A stretch of 64,000 bases of DNA from Chitinophagaceae bacterium (GTDB lineage: Bacteria > Bacteroidota > Bacteroidia > Chitinophagales > Chitinophagaceae), in NCBI GenBank assembly GCA_947457465.1, contig CANGWB010000003.1, forward strand, positions 1 through 64,000, in the 5' to 3' direction. Positions within the stretch are counted from its first letter, which is position 1. Each line of letters starts with the position of its first letter. A program made the position numbers and the translations under genes. Of the stretch, positions 54,615 to 62,171 are shown piece after piece. Under the pieces are notes generated by a model, which saw only the letters and a program-made list of their open reading frames with translations, ran no database searches and was not told the DNA's origin.

Positions 54615-56153
54615 ATGACGGAAAAAATTCTGATCCTCGATTTTGGATCCCAATACACCCAACTCATCGCCCGCGCTGTTCGTGAGGCCAATATTTATTG
54701 CGAGATCATCCCCTATCACCAATCTTTCGAGTGGACTGATGATCTTCGCGGCATCATCCTCTCCGGTTCGCCTTGTTCGGTGAATGATGCCGATGCACCA
54801 ACGGTTCCAGTACAAGCATTCGCTCAAAATCGACCTGTACTCGGAATTTGCTATGGCGCACAACTCACCGCAAAACAACTCGGCGGACACGTAGCCAAAA
54901 GCAATAAACGCGAATACGGCCGTGCCCAACTGAACAGTCGCAACAACGACCCGATACTAGCCAATATTCCGGCCTCCTCGCAGGTGTGGATGAGTCACAG
55001 CGACAGTATTCAAGCCCTTCCCGCCGACTTCCAACTATTGGCCGATACAGAGAGCATACCCGTCGCAGCCTTTCGCTCTTCCCCGAACGCTACCCATCAT
55101 CCGATCTACGGCGTGCAGTTCCACCCGGAAGTTTACCATTCCACCGATGGCAAACAACTACTCCGAAACTTTTTAATGGATGTCTGTGGCTGTCATGGCG
55201 ATTGGACACCCTCTCATTTCATCTCCGATACAGTTGACCAGCTTCGTAAACAGATCGGCAACCGAAAAGTGATCATGGCCCTGAGTGGCGGTGTCGACTC
55301 CACGGTGGCCGCCACGTTAATTCATCGTGCAGTCGGCGACCAACTTCACGGCATATTCGTCGATAATGGCGTGCTGCGATATCAGGAATTTGAACAGGTG
55401 ATGGAGACATACCACTCCCTCGGACTCAATATCACCGGCATCGACGCAAAACAACGTTTCTACAATGAACTGGCCGAACAAACCGATCCGGAGACCAAAC
55501 GAAAGATCATCGGCCGACTCTTTATTGATGTGTTTCAGGAAGAAGCGAAAAAGATCGATGGTGTAGGATTACTCGGTCAAGGAACCATTTACCCCGACGT
55601 GATCGAAAGTGTTTCAGTACACGGCCCCTCTGTCACCATCAAATCACATCACAACGTTGGCGGACTACCTGCACACTTACATCTCGAACTCGTAGAACCA
55701 CTCCGCTTCCTTTTCAAAGATGAAGTACGAAAAGTGGGACGAGAACTGGGAATCCCTTCCCACCTGATCGACCGCCATCCGTTCCCCGGACCCGGCCTGG
55801 CGATTCGCATACTCGGAGAAGTAAACGAAGAAAAAGTATCGCTCCTTCAACGAGCCGATCACATTTATACGAATGCACTCCGTGAGTCAGGTTTGTATGC
55901 AGAAGTATGGCAAGCCGGAACGATCCTGCTACCGGTAAAAAGTGTTGGAGTGATGGGCGATGAACGAACATATGAATACACAGTAGCCCTTCGAGCTGTC
56001 ACCAGCGTAGACGGAATGACCGCCGACTGGGCACATCTACCCTATTCCTTTCTAGCAGATGTATCCAATGCCATTATCAACCAGGTAAGAGGCATCAATC
56101 GAGTCGTCTACGACATCAGCAGTAAACCACCAGCTACTATCGAATGGGAATAA
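54615..56153 (+). CDS. guaA: GMP synthase (glutamine-hydrolysing)
   Basis: Aminates XMP to GMP. 512 residues. N-terminal glutamine amidotransferase class I (1-190): [17 protein letters not shown], catalytic Cys in GICYGAQL (about 79-86), and [12 protein letters not shown]-pyrophosphatase domain: SGGVDST (about 223-229). C-terminal dimer domain: [19 protein letters not shown] and [15 protein letters not shown]. Start [11 protein letters not shown]. Upstream TAACTTAG at 54601-54608 is one base off the TAnnTTTG -7 box and sits 6 nt before the ATG, as in other genes here. It overlaps the next gene by 10 bp. Confidence 0.97.
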
Positions 56154-57334
56154 AATCAACAATACATTGGATTCTTGCCTGCTGTATGGGAATTCTCTCC
56201 CTCCAGACAAATGCTCAATCAACCCTTAACCCATCCGGATCGACAGTTGTATTATTCTTGCCCCTTCACCTCGACAGTATTTACGATGCGCAGGGACAAT
56301 ACCGTTTGAAACGATACGAATTCCCTCGATTCGTGAGCGCACCACTAGAATTCTATCAAGGATTCAAAGAAGCACTTGATTCGCTCAGAAAGAGTCCGGG
56401 TGATTTCACGTTAAGAGTGATCGATACCCGCTCTGAAAGTTCACCAATGAGGTCACTTTTTCAGAATGATTCCATCACAAAAGCCAACTTATGGCTTTTC
56501 TTCGGGAACGCCGCTGAAAGCCGCGTGATCGCCGAGGCATCCAAAAATCATAAAGTTCCTGTCATCAACATCAATTTACCCAACCATGCAGGTATAGAGA
56601 ATAACCCTTTTTATTTTCTCTGGAACAACACACTAGAGACCCAGTGTGAAGGAATTTACCGCCATTGGCAACAATACTATCCTTTGGAGGACATTATCCT
56701 AGTACGCAAGAAAGGAAGTATCGAAGACCGTATCCTGAATCACATCAAAGAGGTAGATAAAAATACTAGAAGCGTGCCGATCCGGTACCGGATCCTTGAA
56801 ACAGCAGACAGCATAACCACCAATGCTTTGGCTGCCCTGATGGATTCAACCAAACAAACAGTCTTATTCGGCGCCAGCCTCGATGAACGGTTTGCCAGAA
56901 ATCTGGCAACGGCAACTACATCCCTTGTAAAAACCGGCTATAAAGTAGAGCTGATGGGTATGTCTACTTGGGAAAATATCCAAGAGTTAAATACAACCCG
57001 TTTTCGAAACACCAAAATCACCATTCCTACCCCATTCTTTTATCGAAGAGCAGATGACTTGAGCAAGCGATTGCAGTCAAAATTCTTAGAGATCAATTAC
57101 AGTAAACCCAGCGACACCTACTTGCGCGGATATGAAATAGCTTGGATGCTTCATGCGCTGCTACAAAAAAATAAGGATCTCGCCGAAGTACTTCCCGGAC
57201 CAAAAAAATTACTCTTTGGAGAAATCAACTGGCAACCGGCTATTGATACAGCTACTTTGCACCTCAATTACTTTGAGAATAAGAAAATCTATTTCGTGAA
57301 ACGAATGGAAGGCTCCGTCCTTTCCGTCCGCTGA
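56144..57334 (+). CDS. Periplasmic-binding-protein-like protein next to guaA
   Basis: 396 residues. Signal peptide 1-24 ([16 protein letters not shown]). The mature part resembles type 1 periplasmic binding fold proteins: [14 protein letters not shown] opening strand, [35 protein letters not shown], and a second lobe with [15 protein letters not shown] and [11 protein letters not shown]. In other Bacteroidota I recall relatives beside guaA that also carry an N-terminal LysM domain; none is visible here. Ligand is not known. It overlaps guaA by 10 bp and precedes the PdeM-like gene by 4 bp, so the three are probably one operon. Confidence 0.65.
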
Positions 57335-57338
57335 CGCT

Positions 57339-57989
57339 ATGCTCCAACCGGTTCAACTCCCAATACGTCTACAAACCTGCTGGTTATCCCCCCAGCGTTG
57401 TCTCTATTGGGAGAAAAAAGAAACACTTGTCATCGGCGGATTTCAGCTGGGTAATTTTCCCGAATCCCTTGAGCAACCCCAACGCCGCTCAAGCCTGGAA
57501 CGCATGCAGGAACAATTACTACTGTTCAAAGCACAGCGTATTCTCTTCATAGGAGGTTTTCCGTTGCCGGAAAACAATCAATACCTCGAAGATTTTATTC
57601 AATGGCGAAAACGCTTCCAATCCCTTCGGATCGATTTCGTTCTATCGTACAGCAGTCCCGTTGCCGAATCATTGTTATTCGCTCAGGGAGTACACATCCA
57701 TCCCGGAATCCTGAAGGAAGATCCATTTGTTTGGATCGGTAGCCGGATTGCCGAAGAGAAATGGAAGACCGGTACAGAAACCAATTACCTCATCAGTGGG
57801 TATGAAGACCCCGGCTATAAAAAGTTCGGAACTCCCAGGCAACAACCCGGCGTACCAGCTTTCTATTTCACGCCCACACACGGAATGCTACCGGCCTTCA
57901 GTCGACCAAAAGGTGAAGATCTTGTGAAACCGGGAAAAGACGAGCTGCTGTGGCTAACGCACCAGGATCACCTGATCAAGAAACCTTAA
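57339..57989 (+). CDS. PdeM-like metallophosphoesterase homologue lacking all metal ligands
   Basis: 216 residues. Order, spacing and flanking sequence fit the ligase-associated PdeM/metallophosphoesterase family: RCLYWEKKETLVIGGFQLG (about 20-38), QRILFIGGFPLP (66-77), RIDFVLSYSSP (97-107), NYLISGYEDPG (149-159) and AFYFTPTHGMLPAF (174-187). In the canonical family these places read xxDxHLG, xxGDxxH, xGNHD and SGHxHPG; here the ligand Asp/His/Asn residues are GGFQ, GGFP, SYSS and GYED. Every metal-binding position I can align is changed, while structural residues (LG, SG, PG, LPAF) stay. Inference: a folded, non-catalytic relative. The reading frame is intact. It is the third gene after guaA and its stop shares TTAA with the convergent DUF5916 gene. 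Confidence 0.72.
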   Translation: MLQPVQLPIRLQTCWLSPQRCLYWEKKETLVIGGFQLGNFPESLEQPQRRSSLERMQEQLLLFKAQRILFIGGFPLPENNQYLEDFIQWRKRFQSLRIDFVLSYSSPVAESLLFAQGVHIHPGILKEDPFVWIGSRIAEEKWKTGTETNYLISGYEDPGYKKFGTPRQQPGVPAFYFTPTHGMLPAFSRPKGEDLVKPGKDELLWLTHQDHLIKKP

Positions 57990-60442
57990 CCTTTTTTACG
58001 AAATCGATCAGCATCCAGAAAATAGATGAACCGAACACTCACCTCATGTCCGTGTCGCAGGTTGAAACTTCCGGATAGATTATCAAAATAAGGACGCTTT
58101 GCAGTGGAGATCGGCAAACGGTCCAACTCTGTCAGCCAATTTTTATAGCCAACGATCAGGCGACTCCCCAATCGATAATCCCAGGTTAGAAAAGCATCTA
58201 CATTGAAGAGATTGACATTGTCGTCACGACCGGGTAAAAACGCAAGTGGCAAAATATCACCTTTCGCATCGACGGAGTAGAAGGAAGAATAAGTCACTTG
58301 ATTCCAATAGTGTCTGGCCCGCAGCGAAAGATTCAGTCGATAGGCGAAATGATAGATGCCGGTGAGCAAGTTGGTAATCTCCTGATTACGTCGAAATCCC
58401 ACGATCGGACCGCCAGATGCATCTCTCACAAAAGCATAGCCGAGTTGATTCTCTTCCAATTTTGAATCGGTCTGCAGCTCCAGAATAAAACGATCATTGA
58501 ATCGATACCGAAGTCCGGTACCGATCATCGAGTACGTATTGTCAAACCGTTTTGCGTTCGCCCAGACGATATTATAGCGCCAATACAATTTCTTTCGGCT
58601 ATCGCTGCTTCCTTCCAGTTCAATGAAATAATTAGGTGGTAGACGCAAAGACCGGCCCGGCGTTCGAAGTTCAAAAAAGTCATTGGTCCAACCCGGCACC
58701 GCCCCCACCGTTACACTCGCATCCCAAAAATTCTTGAACCACCAAAAGGCTGTTGCAGAGGCATCTGCAGATACAAATCGGCGCGGATTATACAAATACA
58801 TCAACCGAGGGTTGATCGAATAACTGAACGTATTGAATCGCTTGGTCGGACGTTGTTCGCGATAGGCCAGCGTGGCAAAAAAGTTCATTTCATTGGGCGC
58901 CAGAAGAAAGCCCAGATCATTGGGGTCATAATTTTTAGATTCAATATTGGCCGTCCAATCGTATTGCCACAAACCGCTGATCTTGGAAAATTTCAGGTTG
59001 CCCGTCCACCCCCGCTTGTCGGTTGCATCCCAAACCTGACTATATCGGAATCTGGAACGAAGCACATGTACATTTTTCTTATCGAATAGCGCCAAATCAA
59101 CACCCGTCACATTCGCATCCCGCGCAGATCCATTACGGATCACATTGGTATTAGTGAAGGTGATTGAAGAACGATTTTTTAAGGCCTGATCCAATACCAC
59201 GATATTGTAATTTGCCAACGGCTCCGTTAGTATACTAGTATCTCTCCCATCCACGCGATTACGCAACCGCGCTTCCATAGGAGCCGCTATGGCATTGAAA
59301 ACACCCACGCCCAATTTATTTTGGTCGCGCCCAGAAAATTTAAATGCATTGTAGAGCTGGGTCCGTGATGGATTATGGCGTATCTCCCATTCCGGATTGG
59401 ATTGCGCAAATGCATTCACTCGGTAAAAACCTCTTGGGGTGGCCCCAACCCGGCGTGAATAGAACAATCTTGCTTTATTGAATAGCTCTGTTCCCTCTGT
59501 GAAAAAGGGACGGTTCTCCTGAAACTGAACTTCAAATGGCGTGAGATTGTTGACGACATTATCGGAGATCACTTGTCCGAAATCAGGCACCAGCGTCATG
59601 TCGAGCGTGAAACTTTCATTCACGCCTACTTTAAGATCCATGCCACCGTTTTGAAAATCATCGTTCTCAAATCCACCAGGCACAGGAGAGCGGGCAAATC
59701 CGGCCGATACATACGGAGATAAACTCAAACGCAACGGTGGTTCGATAGATTGCAATCCGCTTAACAAACCGAACTGATTCGCAAATCCGTCCTGTTGGGG
59801 ATTGATGGGATTCCAAAAGCTGCGCTCATTATTTCGGCGCGTGAAACGCAAGGCCTGTAATCCCCAATCCTGTACCTCACTCTTGGCAAAGCGCAAGGCA
59901 CTGTAAGGAATCATCATTTCGACCGTCCACCCCTTATCATGTATCCGCACTCGACTATCCCAAACAGCATCCCAGGACTTATCGCCATAAGCGCCGAAGC
60001 CTCCGTTGAAGGCGGGTGTGATCCGCGCATCGGTTTGTACGTTCACCGGCGTGACACCGAATTGGAATCCGTTCTGTTTATCGTTATAAGTATCGAAAAA
60101 GATCGAGAAGAAATCTACGTCCGCCTGCCCTTCCGCATCACGCGGCGTGAATTGCTTACGGATCAAGCGCGGGTCATCCGAGAGTTCAGCTCCCACATAG
60201 ATGGCCAGATTGTCGTAAAGAATACGAACCGTTGCAGATTGTGGCGCAGGGGCGCCCAGTACCGGAAAAACCTGAACAAAATTCGTGAGGGGTGATGCCT
60301 GCATCCACACCGAATCATTCAGCATCCCATCCAACTTCGGCGATCTAAGCGTTCGGGTAGCCACAGCGGTCTTGGGTGAAGTTTGTGCGATCGTCCACTG
60401 AGTAACACCCAACACAAACAGGAAGGAGAGAAAAATGCGCAT
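57986..60442 (-). CDS. CBM9-like/DUF5916 outer-membrane protein
   Basis: 818 residues. Signal peptide 1-19. Residues about 25-215 are a carbohydrate-binding-family-9-like sandwich (LRSPKLDGMLNDSVWMQASPL, VRILYDNLAIYVGAEL, DVDFFSIFFDTYNDKQNGFQF). About 230-818 are the DUF5916 barrel region (SLSPYVSAGFARSP, FTLDMTLVPDFGQV, FQENRPFFTEGTELF), rich in alternating aromatic strands, ending SVRFIYFLDADRFRKKG. Such proteins are common in this phylum; ligand and transport role are unproven. Its -7 box is 7 nt before the ATG, and a terminator from the upstream XRE gene overlaps that promoter region. The stop shares TTAA with the plus-strand PdeM-like gene. Confidence 0.85.
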   Translation of the reverse strand: MRIFLSFLFVLGVTQWTIAQTSPKTAVATRTLRSPKLDGMLNDSVWMQASPLTNFVQVFPVLGAPAPQSATVRILYDNLAIYVGAELSDDPRLIRKQFTPRDAEGQADVDFFSIFFDTYNDKQNGFQFGVTPVNVQTDARITPAFNGGFGAYGDKSWDAVWDSRVRIHDKGWTVEMMIPYSALRFAKSEVQDWGLQALRFTRRNNERSFWNPINPQQDGFANQFGLLSGLQSIEPPLRLSLSPYVSAGFARSPVPGGFENDDFQNGGMDLKVGVNESFTLDMTLVPDFGQVISDNVVNNLTPFEVQFQENRPFFTEGTELFNKARLFYSRRVGATPRGFYRVNAFAQSNPEWEIRHNPSRTQLYNAFKFSGRDQNKLGVGVFNAIAAPMEARLRNRVDGRDTSILTEPLANYNIVVLDQALKNRSSITFTNTNVIRNGSARDANVTGVDLALFDKKNVHVLRSRFRYSQVWDATDKRGWTGNLKFSKISGLWQYDWTANIESKNYDPNDLGFLLAPNEMNFFATLAYREQRPTKRFNTFSYSINPRLMYLYNPRRFVSADASATAFWWFKNFWDASVTVGAVPGWTNDFFELRTPGRSLRLPPNYFIELEGSSDSRKKLYWRYNIVWANAKRFDNTYSMIGTGLRYRFNDRFILELQTDSKLEENQLGYAFVRDASGGPIVGFRRNQEITNLLTGIYHFAYRLNLSLRARHYWNQVTYSSFYSVDAKGDILPLAFLPGRDDNVNLFNVDAFLTWDYRLGSRLIVGYKNWLTELDRLPISTAKRPYFDNLSGSFNLRHGHEVSVRFIYFLDADRFRKKG

Positions 60443-60516: not shown

Positions 60517-61266
60517 TCAGTTAAATCGTTTCTTCAAGGAGCTGACCTGCTGCTGCAGACCATTCACCACATTGGCCAGCTGAGACATGTCCCAACGAGG
60601 CTGTGTCGGCGGACGGGAAATGACCATCTGGGCTTGCCACATCTCGATCACCTCTTCCGTGCTCACGGTATATGGGTGAAACGTGGGATTGTCACTCACC
60701 AACGTCAGCTTATTTTTTTGCCGGCCATTCTTCTGAATACGCTTGTACACAATCCCTTCGTTTCGAGATATCACGATACAAGGAGTATCATTCTTGACTT
60801 CCTCGAGATCGTTCACCTTCTCGCCCACGATCACGGATCCACTGGGTGTCGGCAACATAGAATCACCCACTATTTCGAACGCCCGGTACTGCCCGCCGGT
60901 GAGCATCGGCAAGGTGAATGTATTCAGTTCATCGATGAACTCCGGATCGGCATACCCGGCCAAATAGCCGGCAGCCGCCTTCACCGGAACAAATGGTATC
61001 TCTGTTCGGGTGCCGGCCATCTTTAAGGCCCGACGCTTGGAGAGATAGGTACCTTTCTGCTCGCTGATGTCTTTTCTCAGCAGATCGTCAAGCGTGAGTT
61101 TGAACATATCCCCAACCTGTTCCAGCACATCGATGCGCGGCTCGGCACGCTCTTCTTCATAGGCGCCCAGCAAGGAACGTTTGATGTTGAGTTTGTTGGC
61201 GAATTCCTCCTGCGTCCAACCGCGGAGCTTTCGCAAATACCGAAGGTTTTGATTCGCGTAGGCCAT
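60517..61266 (-). CDS. XRE-family transcriptional regulator with S24 peptidase-like domain
   Basis: 249 residues. N-terminal helix-turn-helix (about 5-60: LRYLRKLRGWTQEEFANKLNIKRSLLGAYEEERAEP). C-terminal LexA/phage-repressor-type S24 domain (about 100-215) with the catalytic Ser in VGDSMLP and Lys in GIVYKRIQK, and an Ala-Ala-Gly in VKAAAGYLAGY that could be the autocleavage site. A short coiled tail (LANVVNGLQQQVSSLKKRF) may help dimerisation. So it may be inactivated by self-cleavage on stress, but no phage genes are nearby. An inverted repeat lies 13-33 bp upstream of its start. Targets beyond itself are unknown. Confidence 0.88.
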   Translation of the reverse strand: MAYANQNLRYLRKLRGWTQEEFANKLNIKRSLLGAYEEERAEPRIDVLEQVGDMFKLTLDDLLRKDISEQKGTYLSKRRALKMAGTRTEIPFVPVKAAAGYLAGYADPEFIDELNTFTLPMLTGGQYRAFEIVGDSMLPTPSGSVIVGEKVNDLEEVKNDTPCIVISRNEGIVYKRIQKNGRQKNKLTLVSDNPTFHPYTVSTEEVIEMWQAQMVISRPPTQPRWDMSQLANVVNGLQQQVSSLKKRFN

Positions 61267-61278
61267 AAAACCTAATTT

Positions 61279-61299
61279 ATTTAGTGCAACATGCTAAAT
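61279..61299. promoter_or_regulatory. Candidate operator between the repressor and surE
   Basis: Inverted repeat ATTTAG-N9-CTAAAT (61279-61284 with 61294-61299), beginning 13 bp upstream of the repressor ATG. Position suits autorepression by the XRE-S24 protein; the site is in the shared region with surE. Confidence 0.4.
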
Positions 61300-61356
61300 A
61301 TTTTAGAATTCACCAAAAGATTTTTTGGAAGCGCCCCTCAAACGGCAGGGGAATGA

Positions 61357-61364
61357 TAAATTTG
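61357..61364 (+). promoter_or_regulatory. -7 element of surE
   Basis: TAAATTTG matches TAnnTTTG and ends 6 nt before the surE ATG at 61371, implying a leaderless or nearly leaderless transcript. Confidence 0.5.
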
Positions 61365-61370
61365 AACTCC

Positions 61371-62171
61371 ATGAAAAAAGCAGCAACCCCCAAACGTTCT
61401 AAATCCAAGAAACCGGTCATTCTCATTACCAACGATGATGGCATCACGGCCCCCGGTATTCGGAATCTGGTAGAATCGGTAAAAGATCTGGGGCGTATCG
61501 TGGTGGTGGCACCCGACAAACCACAGTCCGGAATGGGACACGCCATTACCGTAGGCCACCTGCTTCGACTCCACAAGTCAAATCAATTCGGCGACATCGA
61601 AGCCTATGCCTGCACCGGTACACCTGTGGATTGCGTGAAACTCGCTGTCGATAAAGTGTTGCATGCCAAACCGGATATTTGTTTGTCCGGCATCAACCAT
61701 GGAGGCAACCACAGCATCAACGTCATTTACTCAGGCACCATGTCGGCTGCCGTGGAAGCTGCGATCGAAAGTATTCCTGCGGCCGGTTTCTCCCTGCTCG
61801 ACTTCAGCATCGAGGCCGATTTCACAGCAGCAAGACATTACGCAAGAGAAATGGTACAACACATGCTGGATACCAAACTCGATCCGCACACCGTATTTAA
61901 TGTGAATATTCCGGCCAAGCCCCTGGAAACACTGAAGGGACTTCGTCTCTGCCGACAAGCCTATGCGAAATACGACGAAGATTTCATTGAGCGTAAGGAT
62001 CCTTATGGCAAACCATATTACTGGTTAACAGGTGAATTCAAGAACCACGACAAAGGAAAAGATACCGACGTCTGGGCCCTAGATAACAATTATGCTAGTG
62101 TAGTACCTGTTCAATATGATCTGACGCGCTATGAACAACTGACCCGGCTGAAAAAATCATGGAAACTATGA
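61371..62171 (+). CDS. surE: 5'/3'-nucleotidase SurE
   Basis: 266 residues from the ATG at 61371; an upstream in-frame ATG at 61284 would give 29 residues foreign to the family and cross the -7 box. Nucleoside monophosphate phosphatase. Metal-binding ITNDDGITAPGI (about 20-31), Ser of PDKPQSGMGHAITV (about 50-63), the CTGTPVDCVKLAV loop and the LSGINHGGNHSINVIYSGT stretch (about 107-125, with the conserved Asn) are all intact. A basic N-terminal extension (MKKAATPKRSKSKK) precedes the fold. It overlaps the small membrane protein by 13 bp; lpxB follows. Confidence 0.94.
   Translation: MKKAATPKRSKSKKPVILITNDDGITAPGIRNLVESVKDLGRIVVVAPDKPQSGMGHAITVGHLLRLHKSNQFGDIEAYACTGTPVDCVKLAVDKVLHAKPDICLSGINHGGNHSINVIYSGTMSAAVEAAIESIPAAGFSLLDFSIEADFTAARHYAREMVQHMLDTKLDPHTVFNVNIPAKPLETLKGLRLCRQAYAKYDEDFIERKDPYGKPYYWLTGEFKNHDKGKDTDVWALDNNYASVVPVQYDLTRYEQLTRLKKSWKL

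Follow-up and report, generated by a model that had tools for sequence, protein, structure and literature searches.

A PdeM-type phosphoesterase homologue without its metal site, probably retained as a non-catalytic protein in a small-genome lineage of Chitinophagaceae

We analyzed a stretch of 64,000 nucleotides from a Chitinophagaceae bacterium (positions 1 to 64,000 of contig CANGWB010000003.1, assembly GCA_947457465.1; hereafter the window), which carries a homologue of the PdeM (MPE) phosphoesterases, pseudo-PdeM, in which all metal-site motifs have been replaced (Table 1). This gene is probably an orphaned, non-catalytic PdeM whose product has been retained for binding or as a scaffold, in the manner of Vps29. 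The loss of the site and the constraint on the gene are well supported, and the binding role is what we infer by analogy. With its catalytic residues lost and its codons under purifying selection, the protein fits, as judged from sequence, the general description of a pseudoenzyme.

The reading frame runs from an ATG at 57339 to a TAA at 57989, and its 216 codons contain no stop, as stated in a first-pass annotation made from the letters alone. By profile search, residues 11-213 of the window protein matched NCBIfam TIGR04123 (PdeM) at E 6.3e-11, with 42.1 bits against a curated cut-off of 150. This was the sole match in two family libraries (NCBIfam, Pfam), and a Pfam search at E up to 10 returned no family. 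An intact relative (G018) scored 201.5 bits against TIGR04123, matched Pfam Metallophos above cut-off and found the structure 6nvp at E 3.8e-33. In a PDB search, the window protein itself matched the Pseudomonas putida nuclease MPE (6nvp/6nvo) at E 3.2e-6. An AlphaFold model built from five input sequences had a mean pLDDT of 64.4 and a pTM of 0.67, with a weak C-terminal third. Using this model, Foldseek ranked 6nvp (E 1.2e-5) ahead of 6nvo (1.4e-4), with no others below 0.001; the TM-scores to both were low (0.42-0.47, rmsd near 9-10), the model being of middling quality. VIA-align superposed the model on 6nvp with a Z of 11.0 and an rmsd of 2.9 over 132 residues within model residues 5-157, against reference levels of at most 6.2 for unrelated folds and about 6 for other phosphoesterases; the weak C-terminal part was left unaligned. 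The protein as modelled thus has the MPE fold, and the PdeM ancestry and fold proposed at first pass were borne out. Chance resemblance to PdeM was ruled out by the TIGR04123, PDB, Foldseek and VIA-align matches. An antisense or overlapping gene was likewise ruled out as a source of constraint: among open reading frames of at least 80 residues, none overlapped 57339-57989 besides the convergent DUF5916 gene, which does so by 4 bases only, and in the related genome G007 the PdeM and DUF5916 matches do not touch.

We then aligned the window protein, column by column, with 21 intact PdeMs (19 from the genus, two from the wider family). Eight columns that read D, H, D, N, H, H, H and H in 21/21 intact proteins are occupied here by G34, Q36, G73, Y104, S105, G134, Y155 and D157; the metal-ligand role of the replaced residues is one that we take from the calcineurin-like phosphoesterase family. 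The motifs nevertheless sit in the order and at the spacing of the PdeM family, where they had been placed at first pass, namely L22-Y23-W24, G33-G-F-Q36, L37-G38, G72-G73, S103-Y-S-S106, S153-G-Y-E-D-P-G159 and L184-P-A-F187. The earlier claim that all visible metal ligands are replaced therefore survived the alignment, which added two changes not listed before, i.e., G134 and a deletion of six residues after residue 42, in an HFRK-type loop.

Table 1. Features of the pseudo-PdeM locus, in window coordinates.
Feature	Position	Strand	Basis
guaA, upstream neighbour, also in mapped relatives	54615..56153	+	synteny
SBP: periplasmic-binding-like, signal-peptide-like N terminus, directly upstream	56144..57334	+	weak Peripla_BP_6 match below cut-off
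4-base gap between SBP and pseudo-PdeM, place of the Lhr-type helicase gene in relatives	57335..57338	.	synteny
Pseudo-PdeM, 216-aa PdeM/MPE homologue, all metal-site motifs replaced	57339..57989	+	profile, PDB and column alignment
Former D-x-H motif, now G34-F35-Q36	57438..57446	+	column alignment to 21 intact PdeMs
Former Asp of GD motif, now G73	57555..57557	+	column alignment to 21 intact PdeMs
Former GNHD motif, now S103-Y-S-S106	57645..57656	+	column alignment to 21 intact PdeMs
Former conserved His (21/21 intact PdeMs), now G134	57738..57740	+	column alignment
Former GHxH motif, now G154-Y-E-D157	57798..57809	+	column alignment to 21 intact PdeMs
DUF5916 gene, convergent, 4-base overlap with pseudo-PdeM end, ancestral downstream neighbour	57986..60442	-	
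HTH / S24-like regulator, ancestral flank	60517..61266	-	synteny
surE homologue (presumed, named from its sequence), ancestral flank	61284..62171	+	synteny

Among 42 genomes of the genus, including the window's own (G000), a PdeM match was found in 29, which by alignment comprised 22 intact, five fully stripped and two half-eroded proteins. The fully stripped proteins form a pseudo-clade (G000, G040, G007, G023 and G036; genomes of 1.8-2.06 Mb), its other four members being 54-99% identical to the window protein. The first-pass annotation had suggested looking for orthologues with the same substitutions, and these four have lost the same motifs. Four orthologues could be traced to named records, the MAGs CANGZN010000081.1, DFST01000152.1 (Chitinophagaceae), VGFT01000003.1 (Bacteroidetes) and SXXL01000077.1 (Bacteroidota). 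Some isolate names suggest lakes; the Lac Pavin locus (L118) encodes an intact PdeM. In the half-eroded G017 protein, DxH, GD and GHxH are kept, whereas GNHD is without its N and H and the separate His is also lost. The G038 protein has kept DxH and the separate His, has lost the N, H and D of GNHD, and reads GE for GD and GHxR for GHxH. All seven degraded proteins of the genus thus have an altered GNHD, and both half-eroded ones retain DxH. The window genome has a single TIGR04123 match, and the gradation between intact, half-eroded and stripped proteins offers material for studying how a pseudoenzyme originates when the genome has no other PdeM copy. No PdeM match was found in the remaining 13 genomes (12 of 1.5-2.1 Mb and G031 of 2.6 Mb), several of which are incomplete.

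Of 70 columns conserved in at least 20/21 intact PdeMs, the pseudo-clade kept 24, substituted 41 in at least one member and deleted five, the loop deletion being common to the whole clade. Kept columns include W15, R20, W24-E25, N80, F86, W89-R90, G154, P158 and LPAFS. Several of the new residues are polar and shared by all clade members (Q36, E42, S52, S106, Y155 and D157), as they might be if the protein were a new enzyme rather than a pseudoenzyme, with its ligands moved or a metal-free chemistry evolved. We regard this as very improbable, however, since the four diverged orthologues differ among themselves at 5/8 positions that once held a ligand or catalytic residue, and all five proteins lack His at each of the five positions where it used to be.

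Conservation showed no enrichment around the former active site, with p values of 0.11 to 0.77 across five window widths; within three residues of it, 16/32 positions were invariant compared with 75/183 elsewhere (p 0.44). Nor was there a consistent trend in charge, the pI being 5.98 in G023, 6.53 in G036 and 8.5-9.05 in the other three members. With no focus of conservation at the former site and an inconsistent charge, no binding surface is indicated. These data also bear on the idea that the protein still binds nucleic acids in repair but does not cleave them, e.g., marking or protecting single-stranded DNA, and would now do so independently of Lhr. Such a role would suit an ancestor described as a single-strand DNA endonuclease (Ejaz 2019) and the retention of the fold in the model, as matched by Foldseek and VIA-align, but it sits poorly with the lack of a consistent positive charge, with the change of K39, invariant in intact PdeMs, to Asn (G000/G040) or Arg (the other three members), and with the deletion of most of the HFRK-type loop, and we consider it rather unlikely.

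Selection was estimated with our own GY94/F3x4 codon-model script. The cleanest evidence of purifying selection comes from the closest pair, G000/G040, in which 19 synonymous and three nonsynonymous codon differences were counted among 216 codons (omega 0.078; 2dlnL against omega = 1 of 29.2). For the clade-wide estimates, guaA, DUF5916 and HTH served to fix the neutral branch lengths. Across the pseudo-clade, omega was 0.178 (0.160-0.200), roughly threefold the value for intact PdeM, for which two groups gave 0.058 (0.049-0.069) and 0.072 (0.065-0.081). By branch class, omega was 0.064 on intact branches, 0.351 on the stem, 0.165 in the crown and 0.230 on the G023 tip, the deeper branches being saturated, and a second branch split gave 0.035 for the G000/G040 tips. 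The half-eroded branches yielded 0.170 (G017) and 0.197 (G038), with their branch lengths at the bound of 5 and with 3/5 and 5/6 taxa kept, respectively, the others being without a control gene. Omega = 1 was rejected for each branch class tested; in the free-branch fits, some branches stood at bounds. Purifying selection, for which the first-pass annotation had proposed a dN/dS test, was found in the closest pair and in the clade as a whole.

The full frame is kept in G000, G040 and G007, and G036 is open on both contig pieces. In G023, a 10-contig genome, the frame (L004 1501-2145) is interrupted by a TAG in place of the W132 codon of the other four members, and stays open and similar past it; this is either a recent disabling change, i.e., the gene is dispensable somewhere, or an error in the record. 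Under slow decay, the gene would be a functionless remnant on its way out that looks intact since losses of small effect take time. This reading would accommodate the TAG, the missing PdeM match in twelve genus genomes of 1.5-2.1 Mb and the threefold higher omega. Against this, omega is far below 1 on all pseudo-clade branch classes tested and lowest on the most recent, i.e., the G000/G040 tips, and the frame is open in all five members bar the one TAG, such that we consider slow decay unlikely. The first-pass statement that the gene is not in simple decay holds for a retained pseudoenzyme with omega far below 1, and is tempered by the G023 stop codon, which hints at dispensability. The twelve small genomes without a PdeM match indicate, moreover, that the role is not indispensable.

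To relate the state of the site to the partner gene, we searched for the Lhr-type helicase. A specific TIGR04121 match was present in 21/22 genus genomes with an intact PdeM (18 above cut-off and three partial at E 1e-170 or better); in the one without, G014, PdeM lies 34 bases from the contig start. In the seven genomes with a degraded PdeM site, the helicase was found in 0/7, the best matches having E values of 1e-14 to 1e-21. For G000, TIGR04121 gave no match at E 1e-40 and only weaker ones, the best at 1.7e-20. Completeness was 72% for G040 and 100% for G000, G023, G017 and G038. Among the 13 genus genomes without PdeM, one (G031) has a helicase match, to about half the gene. Since ligase and exonuclease (Lig/Exo) scored above cut-off in only 3/42 genomes, it is the helicase, rather than Lig/Exo, that accompanies an intact site. 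Within the genus, in other words, the PdeM site was kept with the helicase even without ligase and exonuclease, and was lost where the helicase was gone. A FastTree phylogeny of guaA, HTH, surE and DUF5916 recovered the pseudo-clade with a support of 1.000, placed G017 with G020/G032 (0.968) and G038 with G001/G021/G005 (0.991), and grouped the pseudo-clade with the PdeM-less small genomes with a support of only 0.58. On that tree, therefore, degraded sites arose in three lineages. That the site tracks the helicase suggests that the nuclease is tied to the helicase and that the PdeM fold has a separate role.

The association extended to a family sample of 394 genomes, with PdeM matches taken at E 1e-20 or better (weakest 2.5e-20) and helicase matches at E 1e-40 or better. 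Here, 277/283 genomes with a PdeM match also had the helicase, and nine sampled genomes, G031 among them, had a helicase without a PdeM match. Among the six exceptions, the helicase end lies at a contig edge in G113. In G344 (99% complete; L127 9952-10095), intact ligands occur beside a 48-residue stretch resembling the helicase C terminus, and the remaining 1.1 kb of the contig holds no open reading frame of at least 120 residues; in G172, G192 and G430 (60-69% complete), the ligands are intact and no helicase was found. These last four genomes count against a strict rule, although they can be accounted for by a recent loss or by missing sequence. Other weak PdeM-like matches in the family were, judging from lengths and scores, either short partials, some at contig ends or frameshifted, or lay within longer frames resembling other phosphoesterases. 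In G126, the remaining exception, from another genus and 79% complete, a partly degraded PdeM (L130 2494-3135; GNND, GYMH, LNS) was seen and no Lhr-type helicase was detected; the H-to-Y change in GHxH is common to this protein and the pseudo-clade.

Gene order was mapped by tblastn of the window and G026 proteins against 40 loci and the window. The window PdeM occupies the orthologous position, with guaA-SBP upstream and DUF5916-HTH-surE downstream, and the mapping supports an ancestral arrangement of guaA - SBP - Exo - Lig - helicase - PdeM - <DUF5916 - <HTH - surE. In G026, Exo-Lig-helicase-PdeM stand together behind guaA-SBP, with a different downstream flank on the stretch covered. The same module follows guaA-SBP, with gaps, in G043 from outside the genus, and is present in G045, where guaA and SBP were not seen on the stretch covered. 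In G019 and G037, Exo and Lig are located away from PdeM. Synteny mapping covered 19/22 intact genus members; in the three left out (G010, G030 and G039), profile-match positions place PdeM next to the helicase. In all five pseudo-clade genomes, the locus reads guaA-SBP-pseudoPdeM with no helicase match between. In G017, PdeM follows SBP directly at about 0.1 kb without a helicase, and in G038 the two lie on separate contigs. Ten of the 12 PdeM-less small genomes were mapped; in nine, SBP is followed by HTH and the locus lacks both PdeM and DUF5916, and in the tenth, G022, the stretch ends at SBP. In G031, the locus (L064, G031:C5, 4456-7397) holds about 436/813 helicase residues, no PdeM and a fragment of DUF5916, and is an intermediate stage of module loss. 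Since the intact PdeMs that were mapped share the guaA-SBP locus, the guaA neighbourhood is an inherited position, and we rejected the functional link to guaA raised at first pass.

SBP itself evolved much faster in the pseudo-clade (omega 0.249) than in the intact groups (0.068 and 0.044). The G000 and G040 SBP proteins are 72% identical, compared with 97-100% for neighbouring genes, as if SBP had been replaced locally, and the SBP homologue of G041 (L061 14752-15834) has one in-frame TAA.

Taken together, the low omega values favor a pseudoenzyme retained by purifying selection over plain decay. Repair clusters of the LHR-LIG-EXO-MPE type are widespread, and the activity ascribed to their PdeM/MPE nuclease is that of a Mn-dependent single-strand DNA endonuclease. 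Linking the observed PdeM descent, site loss, helicase absence and selection into one history, we propose that pseudo-PdeM is probably all that is left of a DNA-repair module of the Lhr type, composed of an exonuclease, an ATP-dependent ligase, the Lhr-type helicase and the PdeM nuclease, which was dismantled in a small-genome lineage of the Chitinophagaceae. In the order that we infer, the helicase would have gone first and the PdeM catalytic site would have been lost thereafter, with amino-acid change rising on the stem, and the protein would then have stayed in, or come back to, purifying selection, presumably as a non-catalytic binding or scaffold subunit built on the phosphoesterase fold. 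The most likely origin of such a binding role would be a protein contact of the ancestral PdeM other than that with the helicase. More broadly, and more tentatively, PdeM might possess a second function, neither catalytic nor dependent on the Lhr helicase, that is exposed by natural knock-outs in one genus: once the helicase is lost, the nuclease site would be free to erode, and selection would continue to act on the remainder of the fold, even where genomes are small.

Among the matches listed in the open-licence literature, no paper dealt with an inactive PdeM. Canonical PdeM/MPE (TIGR04123; 6nvp, 6nvo) resembles the window protein in length, in fold core (the 132 residues superposed above), in motif order and in the ancestral locus beside an Lhr-type helicase. 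The window protein differs in its replaced metal-site motifs, its six-residue loop deletion, its score far below the family cut-off and the lack of a detected Lhr-type helicase partner in its genome. MPE is reported to lie near bacterial lhr genes in 276/319 genomes (PMC8301817). The partly degraded proteins of two genus members (G017 and G038) and of G126 from the wider family are comparable in that active-site motifs are lost and no Lhr-type helicase was found in the genome, but they have kept D34/H36 and some other ligands and belong to separate tree branches or, for G126, to another genus. The eukaryotic DNA polymerase B-subunits and PolD DP1, with their calcineurin-like domains, are also phosphoesterase-fold subunits of DNA machinery, and in the eukaryotic B-subunits the phosphoesterase domain is not known to be active. 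Unlike pseudo-PdeM, these are larger, multi-domain polymerase subunits. Vps29, a retromer subunit, differs in being eukaryotic, in belonging to another branch of the superfamily and in having known partners. It is described as using the phosphoesterase fold as a rigid scaffold and not as an active metallo-phosphatase (PMC3101248), and by this analogy it would be the closest working counterpart of pseudo-PdeM.
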